DNA of 64,000 bases from Catellatospora sichuanensis (GTDB lineage Bacteria > Actinomycetota > Actinomycetes > Mycobacteriales > Micromonosporaceae), in the NCBI RefSeq assembly GCF_007483665.1, contig NZ_VIQO01000033.1:1-64000 (forward strand), in the 5' to 3' direction. The notes under the pieces are model-generated. The model did not search any database, was not told the origin of the DNA, and saw nothing but the letters and a program-made list of their open reading frames with translations. Below, in pieces: positions 34,983 through 43,243 of the stretch (position 1 is its first letter; every line of letters begins with the position of its first letter). The position numbers and the translations under genes were made by a program.

Positions 34983-35177
34983 GATCCTTTTCCCGTCTGG
35001 AGGGGTGGAGACGGGGCGGGACAGGGTGGGGACCGGTCCCGCCGTCACGGTCCGCCCGCGCCCGCGGCCCTGATCGGCGGCCGCGGCGTGGGGGCGGTGA
35101 GGCAGGGGGCGCAGGCGCTCGCGGCAGCGGCACTGCGGCCGCGGCCGGAAACGCCCGGCGGTGCCCGGTCTCGCCGT

Positions 35178-35191
35178 TGGGAGCGCTCCCG
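35178..35191. promoter_or_regulatory. CelR/CebR-like operator upstream of the GH3 gene
   Basis: TGGGAGCGCTCCCG matches the known CelR/CebR consensus TGGGAGCGCTCCCA at 13 of 14 bases. It lies in the 444-bp gap (34983-35426) between the GH3 and DyP genes; the gap also holds the DyP promoter block and has no gene. The regulator is not encoded in this window. Confidence 0.65.
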
Positions 35192-35270
35192 CGCCCGAGC
35201 CTACGGGACATTCACCGACTTGAAAAGAAGCCGCAATGCCGTGCCGGGTGACCGGCGCCCAGGCCAGGGC

Positions 35271-35330
35271 CTGCATTCCGGGGGTACGACAGCAGGCGAC
35301 ATGGCACGATTCCGGTGAGAAGGCATCCGG
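35271..35330 (+). promoter_or_regulatory. Promoter block upstream of the DyP-encapsulin operon (copy A)
   Basis: Copy A of a 60-bp block that recurs at 37370-37430. TGGCACGATTCCGGTGAG (35302-35319) is identical in both, and the 31 bases before it match at 19 positions, including GCATTC 27 bp upstream. Located 97 bp before the DyP start. Confidence 0.6.
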
Positions 35331-35426: not shown

Positions 35427-36554
35427 GTGCGCAGCGTCGAGTCGCAGCCGGTGCTGACAGGAATCACCGAGGCCGCCGTCTTCCTGATCGTGACCGTGCG
35501 CGACGGGGCCGAGGACGATGTCCGGGACGTGCTCGGCGACGTGTCGAGCCTGGCGCGGGCCGTCGGGTTCCGGGTGCCGGACGGCCAACTCCAGTGCGTG
35601 GTCGGCATCGGCTCGCTGCTGTGGGACCGGCTGTTCGGCGACCCGCGCCCGGCCGGCCTGCACCCGTTCCGCGAGATCGCCGGCCCGCGGCACGTCGCCG
35701 TCGCCACTCCCGGCGACCTCCTGTTCCACCTGCGGGCCCGCCGGATGGACCTGTGTTTCGAGCTGGCCAAGCAGTTCATGGCCCGGCTGGCCGGCCGGGT
35801 CGACGTGGTCGACGAAACGCACGGCTTCAAGTACTTCGACGAGCGCGACCTGCTCGGGTTCGTCGACGGCACGGAGAACCCGACCGGCAACGCGGCCGCC
35901 GCGGCGGCCTTGATCGGCGACGAGGATCCCGATTTCCTCGGCGGCAGCTACGTGATCGTGCAGAAGTACCTGCACGACATGGCCGCCTGGAACGCGATCT
36001 CGGTGGCCGAGCAGGAGCGGGTGATCGGCCGGACCAAGCTGGACGACATCGAGTTCCCCGACGAGGCCAAGCCCGCCGACTCGCACCTGACCCTGAACAC
36101 GATCACCGACGCCGACGGCACCGAGCATAAGATCGTGCGCGACAACATGCCGTTCGGCTCGGCCGGCGAGGGCGAGTTCGGCACCTACTTCATCGGGTAC
36201 GCGGGCCGGCCCGAGATCACCGAACTGATGCTGGAGAACATGTTCGTCGGCAAGCCGCCCGGCACCACCGACCGCATCCTCGACTTCTCCACCGCGGTGT
36301 CGGGCAGCCTGTTCTTCGTGCCGTCGGCGGACCTGCTCGACGACCTGCCGCCGCCGGCCGGGTCCGGCGCCGTACCGACGGCCGAACCGGCGCAGGCAGA
36401 GCCGGTGGCGGCCGCGCCGGTGGAACTCGGGCCGGTGGGTGCGCCGGGCGCCCTGGCCGTCACGACGGGCGCGACGGCGACGCCGGTATCGGCGGAGATC
36501 GGGCCCGGCGACTCTTCGCTGGGTATCGGCAGCTTGAAGGAGAGCCGGGCATGA
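35427..36554 (+). CDS. DyP-type heme peroxidase, encapsulin cargo
   Basis: 375 residues from GTG 35427 (GGGAGG upstream). It is a class B/P dye-decolorising peroxidase: GFVDG motif (Asp147), proximal heme His220 (DSHLTLN), Arg238 (VRDNMPF) and the end of the fold near residue 308. A 50-residue Pro/Ala/Val/Glu-rich linker follows, and the last residues DSSLGIGSLKE (362-372) match the encapsulin cargo-loading peptide known from DyP cargos. The enzyme oxidises bulky substrates with H2O2 and is packaged inside the shell encoded by the next gene, which overlaps it by 4 nt (ATGA). Confidence 0.95.
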   Translation: MRSVESQPVLTGITEAAVFLIVTVRDGAEDDVRDVLGDVSSLARAVGFRVPDGQLQCVVGIGSLLWDRLFGDPRPAGLHPFREIAGPRHVAVATPGDLLFHLRARRMDLCFELAKQFMARLAGRVDVVDETHGFKYFDERDLLGFVDGTENPTGNAAAAAALIGDEDPDFLGGSYVIVQKYLHDMAAWNAISVAEQERVIGRTKLDDIEFPDEAKPADSHLTLNTITDADGTEHKIVRDNMPFGSAGEGEFGTYFIGYAGRPEITELMLENMFVGKPPGTTDRILDFSTAVSGSLFFVPSADLLDDLPPPAGSGAVPTAEPAQAEPVAAAPVELGPVGAPGALAVTTGATATPVSAEIGPGDSSLGIGSLKESRA

Positions 36555-37357
36555 ACAACCTGCATCGCGAACTCGCCCCCATCTCGGACGAGGCGTGGGA
36601 GAACCTGGAGGCCGAAGCACGCCGCACCTTCACCCGGCACGTGGCGGCCCGCCGGGTCGTCGACGTGATCGGCCCGGCGGGCCTGGACCAGGCCGCCGTC
36701 GGCACCGGTCACCTGCACTCGGCCGCCGACTCCGGCGGGGCGGTCCAGGCGAGGGTGCGGGAGGCCCGCCCGCTGGTCGAGTTCCGGGCGCCGTTCACGG
36801 TGAGCCGGCAGGCGGTCGACGACGTCGCCCGCGGGGCCAAGGACCCGGACTGGCAGCCGGTCAAGGACGCCGCCAAGCAGATCGCCTTCGCCGAGGACGG
36901 CATGGTCTTCGACGGCTTCGCCGAGGCGGGCGTGGTCGGCATCCGGCTGGCGGCGTCCAACCCGCCGATAGCCCTGCCCGGCGACGCCGCCGCCTACCCC
37001 GATGCGGTCGCGCAGGCCATGACCGAGCTGCGCCTGGCCGGGGTCGCGGGGCCGTACACGCTGCTGCTCAGCGCCGATGCGTACACCGCGGTGGCGGAGA
37101 CGACCGACCACGGCTACCCGATCCGCGAGCACCTGTCCCGGGTGCTGGGCAAGGAGAGCCACATCATCTGGGCGCCAGCCCTGACCGGCGGGCTGCTGCT
37201 GTCGACCCGCGGCGGCGACTACGAGTTGCACCTGGGCCAGGACCTGTCGATCGGCTACCTGTCCCACGACGCGTCGGAGGTGCAGCTGTACTTCCAGGAG
37301 TCGCTGACCTTCTTCGTGCAGACCACCGAGGCCGGGGTCGAGCTCACCGCCGGATGA
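36551..37357 (+). CDS. Family 1 encapsulin shell protein
   Basis: 268 residues, the standard size for a T=1 encapsulin of HK97 fold (linocin M18/Cfp29-like). Landmarks: NNLHRELAPISDEAWENLE at the start, HVAARRVVDVIGPAG, the E-loop region with VEFRAPFTVSRQAVDD, and GGDYELHLGQDLSIGYLSHD near the end. Sixty copies assemble into a roughly 24-nm cage that captures cargo through the C-terminal peptide seen on the DyP protein. Start overlaps the DyP stop (ATGA). Probable antioxidant compartment. Confidence 0.96.
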   Translation: MNNLHRELAPISDEAWENLEAEARRTFTRHVAARRVVDVIGPAGLDQAAVGTGHLHSAADSGGAVQARVREARPLVEFRAPFTVSRQAVDDVARGAKDPDWQPVKDAAKQIAFAEDGMVFDGFAEAGVVGIRLAASNPPIALPGDAAAYPDAVAQAMTELRLAGVAGPYTLLLSADAYTAVAETTDHGYPIREHLSRVLGKESHIIWAPALTGGLLLSTRGGDYELHLGQDLSIGYLSHDASEVQLYFQESLTFFVQTTEAGVELTAG

Positions 37358-37369
37358 CCGCCGGACTGC

Positions 37370-37430
37370 CCGCATTCGGGCGTGCCGAGGGCACCTGACG
37401 TGGCACGATTCCGGTGAGGAGGCGTGCGGT
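37370..37430 (+). promoter_or_regulatory. Promoter block (copy B) upstream of the SDR-like gene
   Basis: Copy B of the block at 35271-35330. TGGCACGATTCCGGTGAG at 37401-37418 is identical, flanked by similar sequence on both sides. It lies 13 bp past the encapsulin stop and about 40 bp before the SDR-like gene, giving a second promoter inside the cluster, probably under the same control. Confidence 0.6.
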
Positions 37431-37469
37431 GACGCTCCTTCCCGACCCGCCCGTGAGGGGATGAGGATG

Positions 37470-38249
37470 ATGCTCTCCGGCAAACGCGCCCTGGTGTTCG
37501 CCGCCGACGAGCGGCTCGCCGAAACGGTGGCCCGCCACCTGGGCAAGCAGGGCGCACAGGTGTGGGTCAGCGGCCTGGACACCGAGGCCGTCGAGGCACT
37601 CGCGGAGAAGATCCACGCCGATGGCGGCGAGGCGCATCCGGCCACCGTCGACCCCAGCGACCCGCACCATGTACGCGAATACGTCACCGCCGTCGCCGCG
37701 AAGGGCCCGCTCGACGTGTGCTTCAACGGCTTCGAGCTGCCCGCGCACGCCGCCGGAGTCGGCGTGCCCTACCGCGACCTGGATCCCACCGTGCTCGCCG
37801 AGGCCCTCGGCGAGGTGATCGGCGCGCAGTTCCTGACCGCGCGGGAGGCCGCCCGGGTGATGGTCCCGGCCGGGCGCGGCTCGATCATCACGGTCGCGTC
37901 GACCAACGGCAGCAGCGGCCGCCCGCACACCGGCGCGCTCGGCGCGGTGGCCGGCGCGCTGGAAGCCCTGGCCCGCAGCATGGCCACCGAGTACGGCCCG
38001 TCCGGCGTACGGGTCAACCACGTGCGGGCCACCCGGCTGTCGAGCGGCCCGATGTACTACGAGAACGCCCTGGGCCGGCCGGTGACCGTGGACGAGGTCG
38101 CTGCGGCCGTGGCCTGGCTGTCGTCCGACGCGTCCGGCGGCGTCACCGGACAGGTGATCGAGGTCAGCGGTGGGGAGCACGGGCTCAGCGAGGCCGTGGC
38201 CGCCCGCGGGCCGAGGAGGGAGCGCCATGTCGAACTCGATCTACCATGA
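37470..38249 (+). CDS. Degenerate SDR-family protein in the encapsulin cluster
   Basis: 259 residues from ATG 37470 (GAGGGG about 9 bp upstream; ATGs at 37461 and 37467 are also in frame). Overall it has the length and order of a short-chain dehydrogenase (GSIITVASTNGS, SMATEYGPSGVRVNHVRATR, AWLSSDASGGVTGQVIEVSGG). Key residues are lost: the TGxxxGIG loop reads FAADERLAE, NNAG reads FNGFE, and the YxxxK pair is replaced in TGALGAVAGALEAL. It may bind without catalysing a redox reaction. Position and shared promoter suggest a link to encapsulin function. Confidence 0.85.
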   Translation: MLSGKRALVFAADERLAETVARHLGKQGAQVWVSGLDTEAVEALAEKIHADGGEAHPATVDPSDPHHVREYVTAVAAKGPLDVCFNGFELPAHAAGVGVPYRDLDPTVLAEALGEVIGAQFLTAREAARVMVPAGRGSIITVASTNGSSGRPHTGALGAVAGALEALARSMATEYGPSGVRVNHVRATRLSSGPMYYENALGRPVTVDEVAAAVAWLSSDASGGVTGQVIEVSGGEHGLSEAVAARGPRRERHVELDLP

Positions 38250-38625
38250 CGAATACGGCACCATCAGCCGCGACGACGGCCGCGGCCTGCTGGAGCTGAC
38301 CTGGTCCCCGGCGACCGACCACATCAGTGACGCCGAGTTCAAGGCGCTGATGGCCCGCTTCGCGCAGACCGCCGAGCAGCTGCCCACCCGCTACGTCGTG
38401 GTCGACGCCCGCCACCTGCACCACCGGCCGGACGCCGACTTCGACAGCTGGTGCGACCAGAACGTCATCCCCTGCTACAACCGCGCCGGGGTGGCCAAAC
38501 TCGCGTACCTGATGCGGCCCGCCGAGGCCGCGGAGGCCGAGCCGGCGCCCGAGGGCCCGGCGACGTTCCCGACCGCGTACTTCGATTCGATGGAGTCGGT
38601 GCAGGATTGGCTCAAGACCGGCTGA
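38227..38625 (+). CDS. Small protein resembling STAS/SpoIIAA-like family
   Basis: 132 residues; GAGGAGGGAG precedes ATG 38227, inside the last 23 bases of the SDR-like gene. The pattern (LLELTWSPATDHISDAEFKALM, then RYVVVDARHLHH, then CYNRAGVAKLAYLM) looks like the alternating strand-helix order of STAS or SpoIIAA-like proteins, some of which bind lipids or regulate partners. Assignment is tentative. Co-transcription with the SDR gene is implied by the overlap. Confidence 0.72.
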   Translation: MSNSIYHDEYGTISRDDGRGLLELTWSPATDHISDAEFKALMARFAQTAEQLPTRYVVVDARHLHHRPDADFDSWCDQNVIPCYNRAGVAKLAYLMRPAEAAEAEPAPEGPATFPTAYFDSMESVQDWLKTG

Positions 38626-38693
38626 GAACGATGGCGTGACAGTGCAACAGAGCGCCTCCGCCCGGCGTAGATACCGGGTGGAGGTGGCGACTG

Positions 38694-39203
38694 GTGCCGG
38701 ATCATTCGTTCGACGACTTCGTCCATGCCGCCCTGCCCGCGCTCGGCCGGTACGCGTACGCCCTGACCGGCGAGCGCGCGGCCGGTGAGGACCTGATCCA
38801 GGACACCCTGGTCAAGGTCGCCGGAGCGTGGCGGCGGGTGCACCGCGACGGCAGTCCGCTGGCGTATGCGCGCACGACGATGCTCAACACGTACCTGAGC
38901 GCGTGGCGGATCCGCCGCAGGCGGCCGGCCAGCGTGCCGCTGGAGGACGACTGGCCCGGCCCTGACGCGTACGGCCCGGTCGATGTGCGTGATCAGCTGC
39001 GCCGCGCGCTGGACGCGCTGCCGCGGGCCCAGCGGGCGGTGCTGGTGCTCGGTTTTCTCGACGATCTGTCCGATGAGGAGATCGCCCTGATGCTGGACCG
39101 CCGCCCGGCCACGGTGCGCTCGCTGCGCCACCGCGGCCTGGCGGCGCTGCGCCGGCAGCTCGACGGCGACCAGGTGGAGGGCGGTCCGTATGCACGACGT
39201 TGA
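38694..39203 (+). CDS. SigE-family ECF sigma factor
   Basis: 169 residues from GTG 38694. Sigma region 2 (FDDFVHAALPALGRYAYALTG, GEDLIQDTLVKVA) and region 4 (LDALPRAQRAVLVLGFLDDLSDEEIALMLDRR.ATVRSLRHRGLAALR) are clear. This is the Streptomyces/Micromonospora SigE-type ECF subgroup. It should direct RNA polymerase to its own set of promoters. The next gene overlaps it by 14 nt and encodes a membrane protein, probably its anti-sigma. It lies between two encapsulin loci, which could be targets. Confidence 0.92.
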   Translation: MPDHSFDDFVHAALPALGRYAYALTGERAAGEDLIQDTLVKVAGAWRRVHRDGSPLAYARTTMLNTYLSAWRIRRRRPASVPLEDDWPGPDAYGPVDVRDQLRRALDALPRAQRAVLVLGFLDDLSDEEIALMLDRRPATVRSLRHRGLAALRRQLDGDQVEGGPYARR

Positions 39204-40386
39204 GCGACTCCTGCGCGAGGAACTGAACCGGCGGTCGGAGCTGCCCGCTCCTTCGGCAGCCGCGGTCGTCACCGCGGTGCACGGCCTGCGCCACCGCCGC
39301 CGGGTCACCGCGGTCGCGGCGTTGTGCGCGGTCACGGTGCTGGCCACGCTGGCCGGAACGATCTCCGCGTTGCGGCCCTCGGCTTCCGCACCACCGGCGG
39401 TTCCGTCCCCGCCGCCCGTCGGCGAGGTGTGGCTGACCCTGCCGCCGGACGTCCGCTTCGCCGACGCCGACCATGGATTCGCCCTGGCCCGGTCGTGCTC
39501 GGCGAACCTGTGCCAGCTCTACCTCGCGGCGAGCGCGGACGGCGGCGCGACCTGGCAGCGGCACCCCGTGCCGGGCGAGACGTTTCCCGAGGAGCAGCGC
39601 GCAGGGCAGGTCCACCTGCGCGTGCTCGGCGCCACCAAGGTCGCGCTGGACGCGTTCGACGGCACCCGGCGCAGGTTCACCGCCGACGGCGGCCGGACCT
39701 GGACCAGTCCGCGCGTGGAGCCGCAGGGCACGGTGGCGGAGATCCCCGACGGCGGGCTCGCCGAGGTCCGGTCGAACACCGGGCGGCCCATCGACATCGT
39801 GGTGCTCCGCCCGGACGGCACCTCGGCGCTGCTCGCCACCCCGCCTCTGACCAAGCCGCTGACCTCGATGTGGACGAACGTGCTGCGCGGCGACGACGGC
39901 AGCGCCTGGGTGTACGGCGGCGACGACACCAGGACCTGGTTGTGGGTCAGCCGGGACCGGGGCCGCACCTGGCGGGACGTGCCGCTGCCCGGCGACGCCG
40001 CGGGGCCGGGCGCGGGCCAGGGTCCGCACCTGGAGTACGGCCGGATCGTGTATGTCGTGGAGACGTTCCCGAAGCGCCGGGTGTGGCGCAGCACCGACGA
40101 CGGCGCGCACTGGGCGGACATCAGCCGGGACCTGCCACCGGACCCGGGCGGAGACGCCGGGCTGGGTGCGGTGGTCTGCTTCGACGGCACCCTGCTGGTG
40201 TACGAGCCGATGACGGGCGCCGTCTACCGGGCCATGCCGTCCGAGGCCAGGTTGGGCCGGGTGGGCGACGCGCCGCTCTGGCAGCGGGCCGGCGGCCGCT
40301 ACCTGCGGGGCGCCGGGCCGAAGGGGTCCGACGGGCCCTACGAGCATTCCCCCGACGGGCTGACCTGGACCCCGCTGACGCTGTAG
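39190..40386 (+). CDS. Membrane-anchored beta-propeller-like protein, putative anti-sigma
   Basis: 398 residues. A cytoplasmic N-tail (1-38) leads to one membrane helix (39-62), a Pro/Ala linker and an extracellular domain with repeated Asp-box-like motifs (SADGGATW, TADGGRTW, SRDRGRTW, STDDGAHW), as in sialidase/BNR propellers. Proteins encoded after SigE-family sigma factors often hold them at the membrane. The short N-tail lacks a zinc-binding HxxxCxxC motif, so anti-sigma function is only inferred from overlap and topology. Confidence 0.8.
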   Translation: MHDVERLLREELNRRSELPAPSAAAVVTAVHGLRHRRRVTAVAALCAVTVLATLAGTISALRPSASAPPAVPSPPPVGEVWLTLPPDVRFADADHGFALARSCSANLCQLYLAASADGGATWQRHPVPGETFPEEQRAGQVHLRVLGATKVALDAFDGTRRRFTADGGRTWTSPRVEPQGTVAEIPDGGLAEVRSNTGRPIDIVVLRPDGTSALLATPPLTKPLTSMWTNVLRGDDGSAWVYGGDDTRTWLWVSRDRGRTWRDVPLPGDAAGPGAGQGPHLEYGRIVYVVETFPKRRVWRSTDDGAHWADISRDLPPDPGGDAGLGAVVCFDGTLLVYEPMTGAVYRAMPSEARLGRVGDAPLWQRAGGRYLRGAGPKGSDGPYEHSPDGLTWTPLTL

Positions 40387-40398
40387 CCGGGCACCGAT

Positions 40399-40442
40399 CA
40401 AGGCTCCGTTCACGCCGCTCACCCGGCGAGGACGGAGCCTTG
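40399..40442 (+). terminator. Hairpin after the anti-sigma-like gene
   Basis: CAAGGCTCCGT (40399-40409) pairs with its complement (40432-40442), with an inner 5-bp stem (40413-40417, 40424-40428). Confidence 0.65.
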
Positions 40443-40516
40443 GTCTTGTCCGGGGGCGGCCGCACCCTAACAGAGGACGATCACCACTTCCAGACCTTTC
40501 GTTCATACCACTTGAA

Positions 40517-40570
40517 CACTAAGAATTAGTGCGAACCGGACACACCGGCGGGAAGACTCCCGCCGGTTCG
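40517..40570 (+). promoter_or_regulatory. Leader of the family 2B encapsulin gene: palindrome and competing stem-loops
   Basis: CACTAAGAATTAGTG (40517-40531) is a palindrome in the AT-rich promoter area. Downstream, ACCGGCGGG (40544-40552) pairs with CCCGCCGGT (40559-40567). The end of that second arm overlaps a segment (40563-40570) that can pair with CGAACCGG (40532-40539). The two hairpins cannot form together. The second ends 19 bp before the start codon. Confidence 0.55.
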
Positions 40571-40588
40571 TACTACCAGAGGTGGGTG

Positions 40589-41995
40589 ATGGTGGTGTCT
40601 GTGGATTCCTCCGCGGAAGTCGAGAGTGGACAGGCACGGTCGAGTCTGGCCACGGCGGCGGCCCGCAATCTGGCGACGACGACGAAGTCGGCGCCGCAGA
40701 TGCAGGAGATCTCGTCCCGGTGGCTGCTGCGCATGCTGCCGTGGGTGCAGGTCAAGGGCGGCACGTACCGGGTCAACCGGCGGCTGAGCTACGCGGTCGG
40801 CGACGGACGGGTCAGCTTCACCACGATCGGCGCGCAGGTCAAGGTGGTGCCACCGGAGCTGTGCGAGCTGCCGCTGCTGCGCGACTTCGAGGACCTCGGC
40901 GTGCTCGGCGCGCTGGCCGACCGCTTCACGCAGGCCGAGTACGCGCCCGGCGACGTGATCGTGGAGGCCGGCCAGCCAGCCGACAAGGTGCACCTGATCG
41001 CCCACGGCAAGGTCAACAAGCTGGGCACCGGCAAGTACGGCGACCGGATCGTGCTCGGCGTACTGGCCGACGGGGAGTACTTCGGCGACCAGTCGCTGGT
41101 CAAGCTCGGCAGCACCTGGGACGTCACCGTCAAGGCGGTGACCAGCTGCATCGTGATGTCGCTGAGCCGTGGCGCGTTCGACGAGGTCGTCGGGCAGTCC
41201 GAGCAGCTGCGCGACCACGTCCGGCGCCACCAGGCCAACCCGGTACCGCCGCAGAACAAACACGGCGAGGCCGCGATCGAGATCTCGGCGGGCCACATCG
41301 GCGAGGCGCAGCTGCCCGGCACGTTCGTCGACTACGAGCTGACCCCCCGGGAGTACGAGCTCAGCGTCGCGCAGACCGTGCTCCAGGTGCACACCCGGGT
41401 CGCCGACCTCTACAACGAGCCGATGAACCAGATCGAGCAGCAGTTGCGGCTCACCATCGAGGCGCTCAAGGAACGCCAGGAGCACGAGCTGATCAACCAC
41501 CGGGAGTTCGGGCTGCTCCACAACGCCGACCTCAAACAGCGGATACACACCCGCACCGGGCCGCCGACCCCCGACGACCTGGACGAGCTGCTCAGCCGGC
41601 GGCGCAGCTCGCACCTGTTCCTCGCCCACCCGCAGGCCATCGCCGCCTTCGGCCGCGAGTGCACCCGCCGGGGCATCTACCCGCAGGGCGTGGAGATCAA
41701 CGGGAGCACGGTGCCCGCCTGGCGCGGCGTGCCGCTGCTGCCCTGCAACAAGATCCCGGTGAGCCCGACCCGGACCACCTCGATCCTCGTGATGCGTCTC
41801 GGCGAGCAGGAGCAGGGCGTCATCGGCCTGCACCAGACCGGCCTGCCCGACGAGTACCAGCCGAGCCTGTCGGTGCGCTTCATGGGCATCAACGACAAGG
41901 CGATCCTGTCGTACCTGGTCAGCGCCTACTACTCCGCCGCGGTGCTGGTCCCCGACGCGCTCGGGGTGCTGGAGAACGTGGAACTCGGCCACTGA
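40589..41995 (+). CDS. Family 2B encapsulin shell protein with cyclic-nucleotide-binding domain
   Basis: 468 residues from ATG 40589 (AGAGGTGG upstream). N-terminal shell segment (1-75: [20 protein letters not shown]), then an inserted cNMP-binding/Crp-like domain (about 80-195: [38 protein letters not shown]), then the HK97-type remainder ([48 protein letters not shown]). This is the family 2B encapsulin architecture, often misannotated as a transcription regulator. It forms a protein cage whose inserted domain may sense a nucleotide. The next gene is its expected cargo type. Confidence 0.93.
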
Positions 41996-42002
41996 TTCCG
42001 CC

Positions 42003-42049
42003 GCCGGGCACCTTGCCGGCGTGTGCGCACGTTGGACAGGGTGCCCGGC
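42003..42049 (+). promoter_or_regulatory. Intercistronic hairpin between shell and cargo genes
   Basis: GCCGGGCACC (42003-42012) pairs with GGTGCCCGGC (42040-42049). It may reduce read-through to the polyprenyl synthase and so set the shell-to-cargo ratio; this is inferred. Confidence 0.5.
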
Positions 42050-42086
42050 GTCTTGTCGTTAGCCCTTCGGGAGAGGTGGTACCACC

Positions 42087-43124
42087 ATGAGCACTGTGGA
42101 GATGGCACGCGGTCAGTCCGCACGGGACGTGCTGGCGTGGAGCCGCACCCTCGTCGACCCCGCGTTAAGAACCGCGGTCGGCACGCTGCGGCCCTCGATG
42201 CGCCGCATTTCGGGGTATCACTTCGGCTGGTGGGACGCCGACGGCACGCCCGCCACCGGGGACGCCGGCAAGGCGATCCGCCCGGCGCTGGCACTCGTGG
42301 CGGCCGAGTCGGTGGGCGGCGACGCCGCCCACGCGGTGCCCGCGGCGGTCGCGGTGGAGTTGATCCACAACTTCTCGCTGCTGCACGACGACATCATGGA
42401 CGGCGACGTCACCCGGCGGCACCGGCCCACCGCGTGGACGGTGTTCGGGCAGGCCCCCGCCATCCTGGCCGGTGACGCGCTGCTCGCCCTGGGCTTCGAC
42501 GTGCTCGCCGGATGCGGGCACCCGGCCGTGCCCGAGGCGGGCCGCCTGCTCAACACCGCGGTCCAGGAGCTGCTCGACGGGCAGAGCGCGGACCTGGAGT
42601 TCGAGGAGCGCGACGACGTACGCCTCGCCGAGTGCCTGTCCATGGCCGAGTCGAAGACGGCCGCGCTGCTGGGCGGGGCGTGCGCCCTCGGCGCCCTGCT
42701 CGGCGGCGGAACGTCCGAGCAGGTCGCGGCGCTGACCGAGTTCGGCCGCCGGATGGGGCTGGCCTTCCAGTTCGTCGACGACCTGCTCGGCATCTGGGGC
42801 GACCCGGCGGTCACCGGCAAGCCGGTGCACTCCGACCTGGCCAGCCGCAAGAAGTCGCTGCCGGTCGTCGCCGCGCTCACCTCCGGCACCCCCGCCGGGC
42901 ACGAGCTGGGCCTGCTCTACCAGCGCCAAGGCCCACTCGACGGACCGGAGCTGACCCACGCCGCCGAGCTGGTCGACGCGGCAGGTGCCCGCGCCTGGGC
43001 CCGCGCCCGAGCGGACGCCCTGCTGGCCCAGGCGCTACGCCGGCTGCACAGCGCCGACCTGGCCCTGGCCCCCGCCTCCCAGCTACACGCCCTGGCCCGC
43101 CTCGCCACCCACCGCCAACGCTGA
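42087..43124 (+). CDS. Polyprenyl synthase, probable family 2B encapsulin cargo
   Basis: 345 residues, all-alpha trans-prenyltransferase. First Asp-rich motif DDIMD (101-105) and second DDLLGIWGD (231-239) bind Mg-diphosphate; RxxxxH/Lys motifs are typical. It condenses isopentenyl diphosphate onto an allylic primer; the chain length is not certain, though a Phe five residues before DDIMD suggests a shorter product. Known family 2B encapsulin loci often pair a shell with such a polyprenyl transferase. The N-terminal stretch before the fold is only about 35 residues. Follows the shell gene by 91 bp with its own GGGAGAGGTGG. Confidence 0.92.
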   Translation: MSTVEMARGQSARDVLAWSRTLVDPALRTAVGTLRPSMRRISGYHFGWWDADGTPATGDAGKAIRPALALVAAESVGGDAAHAVPAAVAVELIHNFSLLHDDIMDGDVTRRHRPTAWTVFGQAPAILAGDALLALGFDVLAGCGHPAVPEAGRLLNTAVQELLDGQSADLEFEERDDVRLAECLSMAESKTAALLGGACALGALLGGGTSEQVAALTEFGRRMGLAFQFVDDLLGIWGDPAVTGKPVHSDLASRKKSLPVVAALTSGTPAGHELGLLYQRQGPLDGPELTHAAELVDAAGARAWARARADALLAQALRRLHSADLALAPASQLHALARLATHRQR

Positions 43125-43140
43125 CCCGCCCCACCCCCGC

Positions 43141-43243
43141 CTTGCGTAGACGCTGGCCCTTGCGTAGACGCTGGCCCTTGCGTAGACGCTGGCCTATGTC
43201 ATCGAATTCGATCTACTTATTGTCGATGACATAGGCCAGCGTC
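43141..43243. repeat. 18-bp tandem repeat x3 leading into a palindrome
   Basis: CTTGCGTAGACGCTGGCC is repeated exactly three times (43141, 43159, 43177). The last copy forms the left part of an inverted repeat with perfect 21-bp arms (43185-43205 and 43223-43243). The palindrome is related to that at 18781. It lies between convergent genes. Confidence 0.8.

Follow-up and report, generated by a model that had tools for sequence, protein, structure and literature searches.

A DyP peroxidase encapsulin operon beside a family 2B encapsulin locus in Catellatospora: a probable lineage-specific insertion with partly shared control

The 64,000-nucleotide stretch of Catellatospora sichuanensis DNA analysed here (the window) encodes two encapsulin nanocompartments: a DyP-type peroxidase gene with a family 1 encapsulin shell gene and, 3.2 kb away, a family 2B shell gene followed by a polyprenyl synthase gene. 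An earlier note on this DNA had described them as two encapsulins of different families with intact cargo genes, about 3.2 kb apart and not related by duplication, and this description stands. The four frames are intact at the coordinates of Table 1, each product scores above a curated cut-off, one shell is of family 1 and the other of family 2B, and 3231 bp separate the family 1 stop from the 2B start. All genes from 35427 to 43124 are on the plus strand. The peroxidase matches Dyp_perox_C (1e-58) and TIGR01413 (279.6 bits, cut-off 100.5); the family 1 shell matches NF041155 encap_f1 (324.4 bits, cut-off 100) and Linocin_M18 (3.5e-93). The 2B shell matches NF041163 encap_f2b (801 bits, cut-off 400) and has an internal cNMP-binding domain at residues 137-222 (PF00027, 3.1e-16), and the synthase, whose gene adjoins it, matches NF041169 f2_encap_cargo4 (491 bits, cut-off 450). 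Structural relatives agree (9i8d and 9bix for the shells, 7bok for DyP, 3nf2 for the synthase). Across all 65 contigs of the genome (9.45 Mb), each of the two families is represented by a single shell above the cut-off.

The family 1 ATG overlaps the DyP stop and DyP ends in the tail SLGIGSLKESRA / DSSLGIGSLKESRA, a targeting peptide also found in the genomes G003 and G005. A DyP carrying a C-terminal peptide of the GSLxIGSLK type, the cargo-peptide consensus given in PMC10960027, thus stands directly beside a family 1 shell, as expected of family 1 cargo. The synthase has 64 residues before its RPAL motif, much of this stretch being well conserved; counted from the first ATG, 55-72 residues precede RPAL in six other loci of the family and 103-225 in three, the remaining rows of the 22 compared giving no figure. 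Just 3' of the synthase gene lies a perfect tandem repeat (18 bases x 3.1 copies, window 43140-43194).

We next asked how common this linkage is. Among 11 Catellatospora genomes, the family 1 shell occurs in three and the 2B shell in ten, and the two lie within 10 kb of each other in all three genomes that carry both (3/11). The nearest named loci, in Catellatospora paridis (96% family 1 shell identity) and C. coxensis (93%), have an identical gene order; linkage was not seen at 13 other named loci. In the bacterial family, where up to four 2B candidates were scored per genome, family 1 shells were found in 17/354 genomes, 2B shells in 95/354 and both in 12. Outside the three Catellatospora, linkage within 10 kb was found in 0/9 genomes with both: the shells are on separate contigs in five, and on one contig in the others at distances of ~42 kb (G016), 132 kb (G135), 407 kb (G132) and 7.2 Mb (G324). 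No 2B shell was seen in the stretch fetched around any of 14 other family 1 loci of the family, and neither DyP nor a family 1 shell at any of 40 2B loci from other genera, hand-chosen from the 95 genomes with a 2B shell. In a class-wide sample of 394 genomes from a larger group, for which not all match places are given, 24 genomes besides the window carry a family 1 shell and a strong 2B match, and none is linked within 10 kb (in 20 the shells are on separate contigs, and in four they share a contig at distances of 1.3-5.6 Mb); the 24 leave out 11 genomes with a family 1 shell but a weaker 2B-profile match (E about 1e-100 to 1e-111). Separate contigs are compatible with adjacency, so these linkage counts are lower bounds. 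The close linkage raised in the earlier note is therefore real in one genus and rare in the relatives beyond it, rarity among relatives being one of the signs that the note had named against its reading. In the open-licence literature searched we found no description of a family 1-2B linkage, and no paper combining Catellatospora and encapsulin. At three places in these genomes (G348:C1:2112651, G636:C15:56988, G660:C126:27094) a 2B shell gene lies beside another 2B shell gene, with one stop codon inside the match.

Confinement to one lineage would also be expected of a chance neighbourhood, in which the DyP operon landed here without functional meaning. Random placement in 9.45 Mb gives a probability of about 0.2% per genome for a distance of 10 kb or less, and a single case among several dozen genomes with both shells, some of them related, would be no great surprise. 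According to PMC12140327, mobile elements are known to carry DyP encapsulin operons.

The history of the locus can be read from the genus. The order SDR-like gene (for short-chain dehydrogenase/reductase), STAS-like gene, 2B shell and synthase is found in 10/10 Catellatospora genomes with a 2B shell (10 of the 11), and DyP and a gene pair for an extracytoplasmic function (ECF) sigma factor and a BNR-like protein occur together in the same five of these ten loci. The GH3 flank adjoins the SDR promoter without interruption in G001 and G006, and the interval from GH3 to SDR in the five DyP-less loci showed no remnant of DyP or of the family 1 shell (best scar match E 0.67). In G002 a good match was limited to a piece of the downstream flank, which did not show where the locus would lie. 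In a tree of SDR, 2B shell and synthase, the five DyP-less genomes fall outside the five DyP-bearing ones. Had the DyP operon instead been present in the common ancestor of the genus and then disappeared from the outer lineages leaving no trace, family 1 shells elsewhere in the family (the 17/354) would be accounted for, as would the grouping of the Catellatospora shell with those of three genomes of the genus g17 (support 0.958); however, five of ten loci, two outer branches included, retain nothing of it, and we consider this history very improbable. No source of an insertion can be named, the family 1 and DyP trees both placing the clade on a long branch. The upstream region of GH3 also holds a palindrome, GGGAGCGCTCCC (window 35177-35190), which we take to resemble a sugar-repressor operator.

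A second line of evidence is a 62-bp imperfect direct repeat, one copy of which precedes DyP and the other the SDR-like gene. Its local alignment score in the window is 64, reached by none of 1000 block shuffles (largest 39). For the repeat flanking the DyP operon in each genome, the number of shuffles out of 1000 that reached the score was 0 in G000, G005 and G010, 5 in G004 and 23 in G003. Within the repeat, the core GTGGCACGATTCCGG lies 50-69 bases before the SDR-like gene in 10/10 genomes (seven exact, three with two mismatches), and copies with 1-3 mismatches lie 38-126 bases upstream of DyP in 5/5. The seven exact matches in the 11 genomes are all at this locus; of 11 further matches with one mismatch, two are DyP copies (G000, G010) and nine lie elsewhere. 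In the 9.45 Mb of the genome, a 17-mer of this element has two exact copies, both at this locus, and no others. As to wider roles, a genome-wide regulon finds no support (the 17-mer with up to two mismatches occurs at four places in the genome, two of them at this locus), and neither does a general promoter of DyP-family 1 or 2B operons: upstream of 24 DyP and 49 2B matches the best match has at least 5/18 mismatches, within the random range. Four other loci have a match with up to three mismatches further in, all G(C/T)G(G/A)CAAGATCCCGGTGA and probably 2B shell coding sequence. The motif also occurs in genomes without the ECF/BNR pair, and is thus not simply the target of the resident ECF factor.

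We read this element as a putative promoter or operator: its duplication would have come with the insertion, and it would have been kept since. Because the repeat precedes both DyP and the SDR-like gene, a cis-element shared by the DyP operon and the SDR-like operon is plausible. Under a chance neighbourhood the repeat would be an insertion duplication and nothing else; yet all five DyP copies keep the core, although the sequence around it and its spacing from the start (-38 to -126) have diverged, a pattern suggestive of selection on the element. We hold chance placement to be possible, if rather doubtful.

The family 1 shell has been lost in part of the DyP-bearing subclade. G004 and G010 carry DyP but no family 1 shell anywhere in either genome; the shell gene is deleted (2/5 DyP-bearing genomes) and the DyP frame stays open. 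The G004 deletion joins window positions 36540 and 37329, so that DyP ends in SLGIGSL directly before the stop; that of G010 joins 36473 and 37261, with loss of the DyP peptide and the last shell residues still readable behind the DyP stop. Each genome keeps sequence lost in the other, and the deletions are thus separate events. The dN/dS of the DyP core is 0.137-0.246 over ten pairs, with no rise in pairs that include G004 or G010, which fits continued use of the enzyme. G004, with its peptide and no shell, appears to be an exception produced by the loss of its shell. We infer that the family 1 shell is dispensable in both species, DyP being the part that was kept.

Altogether, we favour (probability about 0.7) a lineage-specific insertion beside an older locus, giving two separate compartments under partly shared control. 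The older unit, seen in the sequences of 10 of the 11 Catellatospora genomes, comprises the SDR-like and STAS-like genes, the 2B shell and the polyprenyl synthase. The operon of DyP and family 1 shell would have inserted just upstream of it in the ancestor of the five-genome subclade, a promoter-like segment being duplicated with the insertion so that DyP-family 1 and the SDR-like operon each came to lie behind one copy; the ECF/BNR pair would also have been gained, between the STAS-like and 2B shell genes. Judging from the protein families, the family 1 shell would load a DyP hexamer through the SLGIGSL peptide, forming a peroxidase compartment that uses peroxide on some substrate, and the 2B shell would hold the prenyl synthase, with the cNMP domain as a possible control. 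Mixing of the two shells is not expected. Later, the family 1 shell gene would have been deleted independently in two species, with DyP left open.

Several observations weigh against this account. The tree of SDR, 2B shell and synthase disagrees with that of DyP, in which G003 groups with G004 (0.985), and this conflict makes exchange or recombination between species at the locus likely. The choice of one insertion over several traceless losses is an argument purely of parsimony, drawn from ten loci. The repeat could be a mere footprint of the insertion, and the shell deletions may be so young that dN/dS would not yet register a change. On the 2B side, the synthase appears to be without a long disordered N-terminus of 50-100 residues, such as the unannotated disordered domain described for 2B cargo in PMC8346489, and its loading into the 2B shell is thus a prediction. 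The 2B shell gene has a leader of its own, conserved in 10/10 genomes and without the repeated motif. The motif therefore reaches this gene only by read-through, and co-regulation of both shells is unproven: the common element joins DyP-family 1 with SDR-STAS, and with the 2B shell only if transcription reads through. A scan of the region for sigma-70 promoters gave none. Finally, the gap between the family 1 shell and SDR genes of G003 forms a strong 106-base hairpin (-74.1 vs -44.4 +/- 3.6 kcal/mol in single-base shuffles), a long near-perfect inverted repeat present only in G003 among the five genomes. No hairpin beyond the shuffles was found in this gap in the other four, so that a clear terminator is seen in 1/5; terminator-like sites in the region number three, vs 1.6 +/- 1.3 in shuffles. 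A single operon for all genes is not favoured, because DyP-family 1, SDR and the 2B shell each have their own upstream element.

The earlier note had also proposed shared regulation of the two compartments, and this is partly supported: DyP and the SDR-like gene share the promoter-like element, and the leader of the 2B shell lacks it. A stronger version would make the locus one co-regulated module in which the repeated element, perhaps under the resident ECF factor, turns on the peroxidase and the isoprenoid compartment at once. The core upstream of both transcription units, the common strand and the retention of the linkage in three genomes of one subclade speak for it, the cis-element shared by part of the locus being its best support. 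Set against these are the conserved motif-free 2B leader, the presence of the motif in genomes without the ECF pair, the absence of the family 1 shell in 2/5 and the lack of adjacency of the shells in other lineages. A functional unit is possible, weakened by its rarity, the separate 2B leader and the two shell losses, and we regard the co-regulated module as unlikely. The same holds for the idea, which we put forward as speculative, that the resident locus lent a copy of its promoter element to a newly gained peroxidase encapsulin, so that a redox and an isoprenoid compartment became wired together.

The 2B leader bears on gene annotation. It contains a hairpin, ACCGGCGGG-loop-CCCGCCGGT (window 40544-40567), just before the 2B start and conserved in 10/10 Catellatospora genomes; because of this conservation, the start at 40589 used in the earlier note (an ATG after AGAGGTGGG) is preferred to the mechanically assigned one at 40529. 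Antisense to the 2B shell gene, Rfam RF02735 (Sernc350) matches window 40620-41133 on the minus strand (195.9 bits), and it also matches in 5/5 other 2B loci tried. Sernc350 is a Saccharopolyspora antisense small RNA whose target, SACE_3976, is described as a CAP-family transcription factor in PMC3827479. The covariance model probably mirrors 2B shell coding sequence, and SACE_3976 is thus probably a 2B encapsulin shell.

The genes between the two compartments were called a degenerate SDR, a STAS-like protein and an ECF sigma/putative anti-sigma pair. The first label suits the protein as an enzyme and not the gene, which is conserved and not decaying. The SDR-like protein matches Pfam adh_short_C2 (2.7e-32), and its stretch GRPHTGALGA(V/I)AGALEAL has neither Tyr nor Lys in 10/10 genomes. 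Since these residues are absent throughout, a binding or structural partner appears more likely than an oxidoreductase. In the nucleotide motif, glycines 1 and 2 are replaced in 10/10 genomes and glycine 3 in 5/10; the positions examined are presumably the catalytic Tyr/Lys and the nucleotide-motif glycines. The five genomes in which the third glycine is lost are also the five in which DyP was gained. A role as an accessory of the DyP operon, in the mycobacterial style, was ruled out, the gene staying with the 2B shell where DyP-family 1 is absent. The STAS-like protein of the window has no Pfam match; the label derives solely from a distant homologue that is SpoIIAA-like at 15.4 bits, below the cut-off of 25. 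It occurs in 11/354 family genomes, ten Catellatospora and one of another genus (weak, 4.7e-17). The ECF factor exceeds the cut-off of TIGR02983 for the SigE family (143.7 bits, cut-off 141.55); the BNR-like protein has Pfam matches below cut-off only, and its anti-sigma role remains putative.

Table 1. Features of the two-encapsulin locus (window coordinates).
Feature	Position	Strand	Basis or remark
Upstream copy of 62-bp imperfect direct repeat, before DyP	35269..35330	+	local alignment with 37368-37429
Promoter-like core, DyP copy, ATGGCACGATTCCGGTGA	35301..35318	+	
DyP-type peroxidase, family 1 cargo, targeting peptide SLGIGSLKESRA	35427..36554	+	curated models
Family 1 encapsulin shell	36551..37357	+	NF041155
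Downstream copy of direct repeat, before SDR-like gene	37368..37429	+	local alignment
Promoter-like core, SDR copy, GTGGCACGATTCCGGTGA	37400..37417	+	
SDR-like protein lacking the usual Tyr/Lys; accompanies the 2B shell across the genus	37461..38249	+	
Small STAS-like protein (putative fold)	38227..38625	+	in 10/10 Catellatospora with a 2B shell; absent from the genome lacking it
ECF sigma factor, SigE family	38694..39203	+	same five genomes as DyP
BNR-like protein overlapping ECF gene, possible membrane anti-sigma or sensor	39190..40386	+	
2B shell leader, conserved in genus, hairpin 40544-40567	40387..40588	+	
Family 2B encapsulin shell, internal cNMP-binding domain	40589..41995	+	NF041163, PF00027
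Polyprenyl diphosphate synthase, predicted family 2B cargo	42087..43124	+	NF041169

Why DyP peroxidases are wrapped in shells is an open question, and relatives of this locus share a neighbourhood in which DyP occurs with its shell, without a shell but with the core of the targeting peptide, or not at all. If the two compartments were indeed wired together, unlikely as we hold this to be, the natural series of both shells, DyP alone and neither would let the contribution of the shell to the peroxidase be tested. The locus is also a setting in which to ask directly if one cis-element can come to govern two unrelated compartments, and it suggests that a 2B encapsulin has the SDR-like and STAS-like proteins as partners particular to this lineage.

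The DyP half resembles the family 1 DyP operons of the Mycobacterium, Brevibacterium and Klebsiella type, with the same order of DyP then shell, overlapping genes and a C-terminal SLGIGSLK; the 268-residue shell aligns over its full length with 9i8d (2e-107) and DyP resembles 7bok (2.7e-137). Unlike those operons, it adjoins a family 2B locus. In mycobacteria, short-chain oxidoreductases often accompany DyP operons, according to PMC8346489, whereas the SDR-like gene here belongs with the 2B shell, since it is kept where DyP-family 1 is absent. The other half resembles the actinobacterial 2B polyprenyl transferase operons, 900 of which are reported in the same paper: a shell with a cNMP domain is likewise followed by a prenyl synthase, and the nearest solved shells are 9bix and 9bhu. 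It differs from them in the SDR-like and STAS-like genes that precede the shell, which were not detected at the 40 2B loci of other genera, and it has a single 2B shell gene, with 64 residues before the RPAL motif of its synthase. The two-component 2B encapsulins of Streptomyces lydicus likewise have two HK97-fold shells per locus; as described in PMC12407261, however, those are co-assembling 2B paralogues, whereas the shells here belong to families 1 and 2B.

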